A DNA stretch of 33,986 nucleotides from Holosporales bacterium (GTDB taxonomy: Bacteria > Pseudomonadota > Alphaproteobacteria > RUG11792). The position numbers and the translations under genes are program-made. Below, piece after piece: positions 4,903-33,986 of this stretch (the stretch's first letter is position 1; every line of letters begins with the position of its first letter). The stretch covers positions 1 through 33,986 of the forward strand of contig JAIRNI010000014.1 of NCBI GenBank assembly GCA_031258145.1, written 5' to 3'. Under the pieces are notes generated by a model. That model saw only the letters and a program-made list of their open reading frames with translations, made no database searches and was not told where the DNA came from.

Positions 4903-5985
4903 ATGCTTTCAAACGAAAAATTAAGAAACGAAATCAAACAAAGCTTTGAAGTCCAGGCAACACACTCAAAGAAATTATTCCTCTTGCAGGATCAAGACTT
5001 GGCTAATCCGAATGACACCCCAACACAGAAAATCATCGCTTTACTGAAAGATACAAGAGCGGCTTACAATTTCGCTACTGACACCGGGGCCAGAGATTTG
5101 TTCATCGTGCCGACGCTTAGCAGTCTAGTAGTCGACGAATCCTGCTCCCCACTAGTCAGAGTGTGTGACGTTATCCGTCGCAGACTCACACTGAATGACG
5201 TTATCCACCGTAGACTCGCAGTGTGCGAACCTGTTGGATTGCCCGGAACGAAGAAATCCGAAAAATCTAAGGAGATAATCATCTCAGCCAGCAAAAATTA
5301 CTCGCCCGACCACAAATTATCATTCCCGCACCCAATTACGGCTATATGGCACATCATCCAACAAGAACTTTTGGATGAGGGCCACATATTGAATATTCTC
5401 ATGCTTACCCAAAGACAGCTAACTCAGGCAGCAGCATTCCACAATTCCAATATCAAAACCCGGCGAAATGTCCCCATCGGGATATATCACTCCCCTTGGA
5501 CAACTCTGCACGAATTTAATGCAACGTATTGGCCTTACCATGATAACTTATTTATGGGGTACACCCTTGCAGCATCACTAAAGTCCCCTGGAAAACAAGC
5601 ACGGAAGATATCCAAAGATGTAGCAAGATTTACGCAATACCGGACAGGACCTCAAGAAATAATCCTACTGGTAACCGGCAACTCCGAATCGGGACATGAA
5701 ATTGCTAGTCGTATATCCTTGGATAGAGAAACTGCCAAGAATAAAATTCCAATCACAATAATAACCACTGATCCTGAAGAACTGCCGAAACTAGACGAAG
5801 AAATCCTATGGAGACAACAGCAACTCAACAGTAGTAACATTATCAGACTCCCTAACGGTTGGATCGACGTGACAGACCAATCACACCCATTCAGAAGGCT
5901 CATTTTGCATAAGAATGTCCCGTCCGCATTCATTCCACCGATGGACGAAGCAATAGAGATAGCGGAGGCAAGCACCAGCAAGTAA
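4903..5985 (+). CDS. Orphan hypothetical protein
   Basis: A 360-residue protein without a recognised family, signal peptide or membrane segment. It contains a tandem 10-residue duplication (CDVIRRRLTL then NDVIHRRLAV, encoded at 5160-5219). Further on there is a hydrophobic strand-like stretch with GNSESGHEIASR (EIILLVTGNSESG), which superficially recalls a nucleotide-binding loop but lacks the GKS/T of a Walker A motif. It follows the signal-peptide gene by 24 bases on the same strand and shares its A- and C-rich sense strand (many CCA, ACA, AAC, ATA codons), unlike the housekeeping genes. Function unknown. It converges on suhB. Confidence 0.7.
   Translation: MLSNEKLRNEIKQSFEVQATHSKKLFLLQDQDLANPNDTPTQKIIALLKDTRAAYNFATDTGARDLFIVPTLSSLVVDESCSPLVRVCDVIRRRLTLNDVIHRRLAVCEPVGLPGTKKSEKSKEIIISASKNYSPDHKLSFPHPITAIWHIIQQELLDEGHILNILMLTQRQLTQAAAFHNSNIKTRRNVPIGIYHSPWTTLHEFNATYWPYHDNLFMGYTLAASLKSPGKQARKISKDVARFTQYRTGPQEIILLVTGNSESGHEIASRISLDRETAKNKIPITIITTDPEELPKLDEEILWRQQQLNSSNIIRLPNGWIDVTDQSHPFRRLILHKNVPSAFIPPMDEAIEIAEASTSK
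5160..5219 (+). repeat. 30-bp tandem duplication inside the orphan gene
   Basis: Two head-to-tail 30-base units share GACGTTATCC and AGACTC blocks at identical offsets, and a partial third unit (GTGTGCGA) follows. The period is a multiple of three, so the reading frame is kept and a 10-residue repeat is encoded. This looks like a replication-slippage expansion. Confidence 0.85.
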
Positions 5986-29650: not shown

Positions 29651-29726
<76 letters not shown>

Positions 29727-29738
29727 AGTCTGTTGATT

Positions 29739-31376
29739 ATGATAGCTTTTGGTTACGTTTTATCGGTCTTGCTGCTTCCGTTATGTGTCTTCGGATTTTA
29801 TCACGATTTCTTCTTGACGATTAACGATGCGGCGATTTCATTCTACCTCCGATCCGCGGCCGTGTTTCTCGGGGGGGCATCGTTTGTCCTGTGCTGGTAT
29901 TATGCGAACATATCTATTCGATGTAAATCCATATCTTTCCTGAGAGATTTTAATGAGTCCATAATTAGATCCGATCCCAGGCGCATTTCTACAGATGGGA
30001 TAATGGGTATCGCCAATGATAACCTCGCTAAATTGTTGTTGTTGGAGGATTATAGATTTGAATTATTTGGGTTCGCGATACCTTTTTTGACAATATTTCT
30101 AGCTCTTTTAACTTTGGCGTGTTTCATCGATGCCAACGTTATATTTCCCACCTTAATCACCATGACGATTGCGACGATCATCATCAAGGCGGCCACACAA
30201 ATCATTTCATCATGCGATATCAGAAAATATAAGCTTCAGATGGATGAATTTATGGAATCGACAGCCTTCGCGGCGAAGGGTATCCAGTATTACGGGGCAG
30301 AGCAAAGTATGCTCGATCAGTTTGATGATAGGAGGAGTAGTATACTGGATCATACGAAGAACGACATCACATCCGTGACGTGGAAGATGTTGTGGTGTCT
30401 TTGTGGATTGGAATGCTGTTGTCTACTGGCGTATATCATCAATGAAGAAATGGCCATTTCGAAGATGTTCAATATTACGGCTACTCGCTCTTTTTTCTTT
30501 GCGATCATCTTTGATTATACTATGTTTCTTGTTTCGATCTTGAGATATATTAAAATTAGGAACATAAAACTCAAGAACTTGGATCAGTATAAATTTGAGG
30601 ATACCGATGAGGTGCCCGAGAAAAGCATCGTTCCCAATAGTGAAAATCTCTTTCTAGCATTCCACGGAGTATACTTCCAGGATATGGCGGAGGCCGCTGG
30701 TGACACCGGCCTGCAAAATGTATCCTTTTCGGTTTTACCAGGAGAATTCATATCAATCACTGGAGAAAACATTAAACTCGCACCATACATATTCGATCTA
30801 TTATTGAAGTATTATAAGCCACAATCGGGGAATATCTATATATCCGGGACGTCGATACATTCCATCAAAAAGCAATCCATTAGGGCTAATGTTGGGATTT
30901 TTCAACAGGATTTCGGATTGATGGATGGAACCATCTACCAAAACCTCGAGATGTTGCATCGTGATGAGGAGAAGATCCTGCAGGTCGCGGAGAAGATTGG
31001 ATTATATTCGATATTGGATCTCGACGTATTGGATCCAGAAACTCGTCAAATACAAGTCCCACAGAGCGTCTTATTTAAGTTACAGATCGCTAGGATCAGC
31101 ATGCAGCAACCGCGGATATTACTGATCGATACACCAAAGGGTTTTGAGACGGAAGAGGATGCCCAGGCGTTTGAAGAATACGTGGAGTATATGACGAAAC
31201 GGAAGACGGTCCTCATTATTACCACTTCCCCGAAGTTCATCATATACTCGAACAAGATCTTGTACCTTGGTGATGGCGTACAATCCCTCTTCGGATCCCA
31301 CGCACAACTTTCACAGGATCCAGAATATCAAAAGTACATTAAAATGCTATACCCACGCAATTCAATAAACACCTAA
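29739..31376 (+). CDS. ABC exporter-like protein with degenerate ATPase motifs
   Basis: The architecture is that of a fused permease-ATPase half-transporter: about six hydrophobic segments in the first 275 residues, then a nucleotide-binding-like domain (about 305-525). The catalytic motifs are degraded. The Walker A position reads [10 protein letters not shown] (343-352, no GKS/T), the LSGGQ signature position reads VPQSVLF (442-448), the Walker B RILLID (461-466) is followed by Thr and not the catalytic Glu, and the switch-loop His is replaced (ITTSP). Only the Q-loop region (GIFQQDFGL) survives. The frame is uninterrupted, so the protein may be made but is unlikely to hydrolyse ATP. ATG 29739 is preferred to TTG 29733; neither has a Shine-Dalgarno. 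The C-terminal NSINT comes from a palindromic repeat. Confidence 0.8.
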
Positions 31377-31391
31377 GTGTTTATTGAATTG
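31358..31391 (+). repeat. Palindromic repeat family 1, perfect copy
   Basis: CAATTCAATAAACAC (31358-31372), loop CTAA (31373-31376) and GTGTTTATTGAATTG (31377-31391) are perfect 15-base complements. It supplies the final residues and stop codon of the ABC-like gene and lies between convergent genes, so it is well placed as a bidirectional terminator. Confidence 0.92.
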
Positions 31392-33681: not shown

Positions 33682-33714
33682 CTCGCGCAATTCAATAAAC
33701 ACGCGAGTGTTTAT
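33682..33714 (+). repeat. Palindromic repeat family 1, copy near the right end
   Basis: CAATTCAATAAACAC (33688-33702) matches the left arm of the perfect copy; GTGTTTAT (33707-33714) pairs with ATAAACAC, but the right arm is then cut short. An alternative outer pairing CTCGCG (33682-33687) with CGCGAG (33702-33707) is also possible. It lies upstream of rsh. The rest of 33580-33727 shows no gene. Confidence 0.75.
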
Positions 33715-33727
33715 AGCTAAATGCTTT

Positions 33728-33986
33728 GTAACCCAACTATATCTCGTATAGTTAAATGCAACGATTATGAGGCCGTCATATGGTTTGGTGAAATATAAAG
33801 CCTGGAAACGCAGAAAAAAATATTTCTTGAAAATTAACGTATTATTAAACTTTTTATGCTATTTTAAGTATACACCATCCCTAACCCCCACCCACCCGGG
33901 GATTCTCGCACAACTCGGTTAATAATACGTTAACGGACGATTACTCAAGGGCATATGCCACCAATACTGATCCAGATGAATTAGAT
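33728..33986 (+). repeat. Long dispersed direct repeat, right copy (truncated by window end)
   Basis: Same orientation as 1-257 and collinear with it throughout, about 94% identical by eye, with two extra bases in an A-run near 33815. The copy runs into the window end, so its full extent is unseen. It begins shortly after the palindromic repeat at 33682, with the junction at GTAACCCAAC exactly matching base 1 of the window. Confidence 0.9.

Follow-up and report, generated by a model that had tools for sequence, protein, structure and literature searches.

An ABC exporter-like protein without canonical ATP motifs is conserved among Holosporales-labelled alphaproteobacteria

Gene, domain layout and ATP motifs

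To characterize a putative ATP-binding cassette (ABC) exporter gene with degenerate ATPase motifs, we analysed the 33,986-nucleotide contig JAIRNI010000014.1 of the Holosporales bacterium assembly GCA_031258145.1, hereafter the window (contig C50 of genome G000; 844 kb in 54 contigs). The gene, which we term the pseudo-exporter, occupies positions 29739–31376 of the + strand, as supported by its open frame, Pfam, motif alignment, AlphaFold2 and Foldseek. The frame begins at a TTG codon at 29733 or an ATG codon at 29739, contains no internal stops and encodes 547 or 545 residues, respectively. The initial annotation had described an intact exporter open reading frame (ORF) whose ATPase motifs are lost; the open frame and an alignment to an intact exporter of the same genome confirmed this description.

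The protein was predicted to comprise two domains. The transmembrane domain (TMD; 29739–30557, + strand), assigned from the AlphaFold2 model and family conservation, contained six helices in the ABC-exporter arrangement, spanning model residues 2–20, 31–77, 85–130, 132–177, 188–234 and 247–273 as counted from the ATG codon. A conserved GIQ stretch (residues 183–185) lies where exporters bear a cytoplasmic coupling-helix motif and, from general features of the fold and an alignment with known exporters, we take it to be the equivalent element. The pseudo-nucleotide-binding domain (pseudo-NBD; 30639–31376, + strand), delimited using Pfam, AlphaFold2 and the motif columns, starts at about residue 303. 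The sole Pfam match, to ABC_tran, covered residues 327–468 with a score of 47 bits against a cut-off of 25, and the identity of the NBD is therefore well above chance. The TMD was not recognized by Pfam ABC_membrane.

Comparisons at the level of profile and fold gave a consistent picture. The family profile matched ABCB-type exporters and PCAT1 across nearly its entire length, and the best NCBIfam scores were to the LssB and CydC models. According to an AlphaFold2 model generated with the family alignment, six long helices are followed by an NBD fold (predicted local distance difference test, 80.6; predicted template-modelling score, 0.56); the fold thus appears to be kept, a point that the initial annotation had left to structure prediction. 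In Foldseek searches of the PDB, the model matched the type IV exporters TmrAB, TM287/288, EfrCD, PCAT1 and MsbA (E about 1e-19, probability 1.00, about 590 aligned columns). With TM-scores of only about 0.4, the monomer model gives no reliable guide to how the domains sit relative to each other. Overall, the sequence and the model identify the protein as a type IV (ABCB-like) exporter by fold and descent, with a six-helix TMD, long cytoplasmic extensions and a fused C-terminal NBD.

As the reference for the motifs, we used the genome's own intact fused exporter (G000:C15, L150; 627-aa frame), an intact relative of the kind that the initial annotation had proposed looking for. All of the former motifs lie on the + strand and were assessed by alignment of 22 orthologues. 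The Walker A motif (30762–30788) has changed from GRSGAGKST to GENIKLAPY, with a family consensus of GEN...Y-IF, and the lysine column of GK[ST] is retained in none of the 22. At the signature (31056–31070), ISGGQ is replaced by VPQSV, with a glutamine at the first glycine position in 20 of the 22 copies. Walker B (31128–31133) reads ILLIDT in place of ILLLDE, so that D-E is now D-T; across the family, Glu-Thr is commonest at this position and is followed by an invariant proline. The switch histidine (31224–31226) is a threonine, the H-loop having changed from THRL to TTSP, and the position is variable in the family. The A-loop tyrosine and the D-loop SALD are likewise gone from the window copy, which retains the Q-loop glutamine. 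An alignment placing intact motifs elsewhere in the protein would have argued otherwise, and none was found. As none of the 22 copies contains the Walker A GxxGxGK[ST], the LSGGQ signature, the Walker B D-E or the H-loop histidine, their sequences indicate that the protein would not function as an ATP-driven type IV exporter.

The loss was originally described as limited to catalytic residues. Among columns conserved in intact exporters, the family kept 2 of 17 in the ATP motifs and 28 of 59 elsewhere in the NBD (Fisher p = 0.010). By this measure, the loss is concentrated in ATP-contacting positions, yet not confined to them. The former motif positions also carry new, near-invariant, family-specific residues: E345 and Y352 in Walker A, Q444 in the signature, as well as Q451 and P468. 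Residues of the Q-loop and coupling region are kept, namely G399, T400 and N404, together with the GIQ stretch of the TMD.

Distribution and selection across the family

The family sample comprised 35 genomes of symbiotic, Holosporales-labelled alphaproteobacteria. Full-length, uninterrupted orthologues were present in 22 of these (G000 and 21 others), with 23–71% identity to the window copy; G021 carries a partial orthologue at a contig end. Together, they cover 16–17 of the 20 genera and extend to G018, the deepest branch of the RpoB tree. Outside the family, no orthologue was found among the genomes in a sample of 385 alphaproteobacterial genomes. The publicly named loci belong to metagenome-assembled genomes that carry the labels 'Holosporales bacterium', 'Alphaproteobacteria bacterium' or 'uncultured proteobacterium'; rumen or rectum was the source of several. 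Many of the other family genomes appear from their labels to derive from termite guts, consistent with a review describing members of 'Candidatus Paracaedibacteraceae' from termite guts and antelope (PMC11909080).

The gene tree and the RpoB tree agreed on the well-supported groups: g1; G026 with G031; G029 and G034 with G010; and G008 and G015 with G022 and G009. Both also placed G018 deepest, on a long branch and with a root set only by midpoint. Inheritance of the pseudo-exporter is broadly vertical. In a tree of exporters, the pseudo-exporters formed one clade on a long stem, and the tree did not resolve whether any of the intact exporters within the family gave rise to them. The second exporter of G018 (G018:C36:2197-3033, L171) keeps GPTGCGKTS and SGGQ, has DD at Walker B and glutamine at the switch position; in sequence, it resembles a mildly degenerate subunit.

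The gene was missing from five genomes of the g7/g8 clade that are 89–97% complete (G011, G012, G025, G027 and G030), in which the pattern with tRNA-Ala(GGC) described below was not found either. These five also lack any ABC_membrane exporter and a detectable LptD, absences that suggest loss of lipopolysaccharide export. We considered whether the pseudo-exporter tracks with LptD or with the intact exporter, and rejected this: the joint absence represents a single clade, and the pattern is broken by G008, G015, G009, G017 and G018. The apparent lack of the gene in G024 is doubtful because its contig breaks off at the tRNA-Ala, at the point where the gene would be expected to start.

Purifying selection on the pseudo-exporter is strong and about equal to that on the intact exporter. 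The approximate whole-gene, pairwise ratio of nonsynonymous to synonymous substitution rates (dN/dS) was 0.066–0.095, far from the value of one expected of a recent pseudogene; the intact exporter encoded by these genomes gave 0.075, and RpoB 0.02–0.04. The dead NBD evolves more slowly and is more constrained than the TMD: where dN/dS could be computed by half, it was 0.03–0.06 for the NBD versus 0.10–0.19 for the TMD, and NBD identity exceeded TMD identity in every pair (75 v 67, 79 v 71, 78 v 66 and 86 v 72%). In the intact exporter, the TMD and NBD were about equally diverged, or the NBD more so (81/80, 81/79 and 79/72% identity). Together, the slow NBD, the low dN/dS and the new near-invariant residues indicate that the protein is not a dead remnant. 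The proposal of a repurposed pseudo-ATPase, as opposed to simple decay, is thus well supported by 22 open and equally degenerate orthologues, the low dN/dS and the preserved predicted fold.

Surroundings of the gene

Directly upstream of the pseudo-exporter, ARAGORN predicted a tRNA-Ala (GGC; 29651–29726, + strand), whose CCA end is 12 nt from the ATG codon. In 14 genomes (13 orthologous loci and G021:C59), the gene follows a tRNA-Ala(GGC) of the same orientation, usually at a distance of no more than about 20 nt. No consensus promoter was found on the + strand between the tRNA and the ORF in the window. Given the 12-nt spacer, the gene is probably co-transcribed with the tRNA and read out of its transcript. 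Apart from this tRNA, the orthologous loci share no protein-coding neighbour beyond close relatives, and no conserved partner gene adjoins them. Near one orthologue, L079:9055-10875 encodes the type VI secretion baseplate protein TssF (PF05947, E 1e-126); near that of another family member, L072:713-2515 was assigned as TssF by similarity to the L079 copy.

A dispersed palindromic repeat, AATTCAATAAACAC-N4-GTGTTTATTGAATT, occurs at window positions 31359–31390, 26599–26630, 33689–33702 and 33900–33986, and in L236, L237, L238 and L239. It overlaps the stop codons of both the pseudo-exporter and lipA, and the two proteins therefore both end in NSINT. Its 14-mer has 79 exact copies in G000 and none in 34 relatives, including those of the same genus. 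Elsewhere, the repeat occurs in tandem units of about 184 bp, often near contig ends, and the right end of the window resembles such a unit. It had no Rfam match. ARAGORN also predicted a two-piece (permuted) transfer-messenger RNA at 475–838. The long ORFs at 7937–10564 (875 aa) and 4903–5985 (360 aa) had no Pfam match even at E 0.1.

Possible functions of the protein

Because the NBD core and the TMD contacts are kept and the ATP motifs are lost, we favour an ATP-independent, probably homodimeric protein. More specifically, we consider it an even proposition that the protein is a pseudo-ABC exporter specific to this family, stripped of all ATP chemistry and kept by selection for an ATP-free role as a scaffold, regulator or gate, not as a pump. 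To judge from its sequence, the protein would neither bind nor hydrolyse ATP, and it is from this that we infer such a role. The scaffold and channel raised in the initial annotation, as well as a regulator, are candidate roles. According to the proposed mechanism, a homodimer in the inner membrane would have pseudo-NBDs that still dock onto the TMDs by way of the coupling interface, which has been kept. In the NBD core and the TMD-contacting residues, the mechanical connection would persist without the engine, and the pseudo-NBDs would serve not as a motor but as a fixed clamp and a platform for protein interactions, whether as scaffold, regulator or passive gate.

The protein resembles the type IV exporters MsbA, Sav1866, TM287/288, TmrAB and PCAT1 in carrying a six-helix TMD and a C-terminal NBD on one chain, with a nearly full-length fold match. 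It differs in that no ATP-handling motif is left and the TMD is unseen by Pfam ABC_membrane. Degenerate ABC sites are well known in exporters but, to our knowledge, always occur in a complex with at least one working site or, as in SbmA, where no NBD is present. In the open-access papers searched, we found no ABC exporter that lacks both halves of the ATP site.

An ATP-independent transporter akin to SbmA/BacA, either a facilitator or driven by an ion gradient and with the NBD as a vestigial structural cap, is possible but unlikely. The likeness is that of an ABC-exporter TMD no longer using ATP, and SbmA demonstrates that this fold can run on protons (PMC13316013). However, in SLiPT proteins the NBD and coupling helices are gone and a ladder of conserved intramembrane glutamates is present (PMC13316013), neither of which holds for the pseudo-exporter: its NBD is kept, under tighter constraint than the TMD, and the hydrophobic spans contain no conserved acidic residue, the conserved acidic columns D81 and E105 lying outside them. 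On these sequence grounds, a proton-driven transporter of this type is disfavoured.

The initial annotation also suggested a degenerate partner in a heterodimer, which would here pair with the intact fused exporter (G000:C15). Most genomes bearing the pseudo-exporter encode one such exporter, the two genes are jointly missing from the g7/g8 clade, the coupling interface has been kept, and heterodimers with a single degenerate site are an established arrangement (PMC7756269). The degenerate subunits of TAP1/2, TM287/288 and TmrAB similarly lack the catalytic glutamate and switch histidine, and in the strongly degenerate site of Pdr5 the Walker A lysine, Walker B glutamate and H-loop histidine of one NBD are all replaced (PMC7756269). 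By contrast, those heterodimers keep one canonical composite site, their degenerate subunit retaining its signature, and Pdr5 is degenerate at only one of its two composite sites. A composite site is formed by Walker A and B of one NBD and the signature of the other (PMC7756269); as both halves are lost in all 22 copies, neither site of a heterodimer with the intact exporter would be canonical. Moreover, G008 (94% complete) carries the pseudo-exporter, and no other ABC_membrane protein or fused exporter was found in it; NBD fragments at its contig ends belong to an MlaF-like importer ATPase. The same was true of its sister G015, though with a completeness of just 64%. The companion exporter belongs to one of two distinct kinds, which differ between genera, and does not share the gene neighbourhood, and no dedicated, always-adjoining partner gene was seen, with some doubt left by the draft genomes. 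Overall, a heterodimeric subunit seems rather improbable.

Less probable still is a sensor whose remodelled P-loop would hold a nucleotide or some other ligand, with signalling by way of the TMD. The near-invariant GEN...Y-IF element at the former Walker A would suit such a site, but the P-loop lysine is absent from all 22 copies, the A-loop aromatic is lost, the Walker B aspartate is variable and three copies have an insertion in the P-loop. Finally, although reduced genomes often contain decaying genes and the window copy has diverged somewhat further from its G005 counterpart than the intact exporter has (71 v 81% identity), a decaying pseudogene is scarcely credible given uninterrupted full-length frames in 16 genera and a dN/dS of about 0.07–0.10, which, with the 22 open frames, rule out recent pseudogenization.

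Several considerations weigh against the ATP-free scaffold, regulator or gate. The faster-evolving TMD may be compatible with a broad-specificity pore, and the sequence may leave room for non-canonical nucleotide binding. The case against the heterodimer leans partly on absences in draft genomes, and the dN/dS figures are approximate because dS is near saturation (1.2–2.6).

We nonetheless favour the pseudo-ABC exporter kept for an ATP-free role, with the same evenly balanced confidence that a clade of full-length exporters (TMD and NBD) gave up ATP and that the pseudo-NBD became a new, strongly constrained functional surface. Jointly with this explanation, and to the same degree, the ATP chemistry would have been lost before the bacterial family radiated. 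If so, the ABC architecture can be retained for purposes other than ATP-driven movement, and these proteins would constitute a natural test of the non-catalytic contributions of the NBD.
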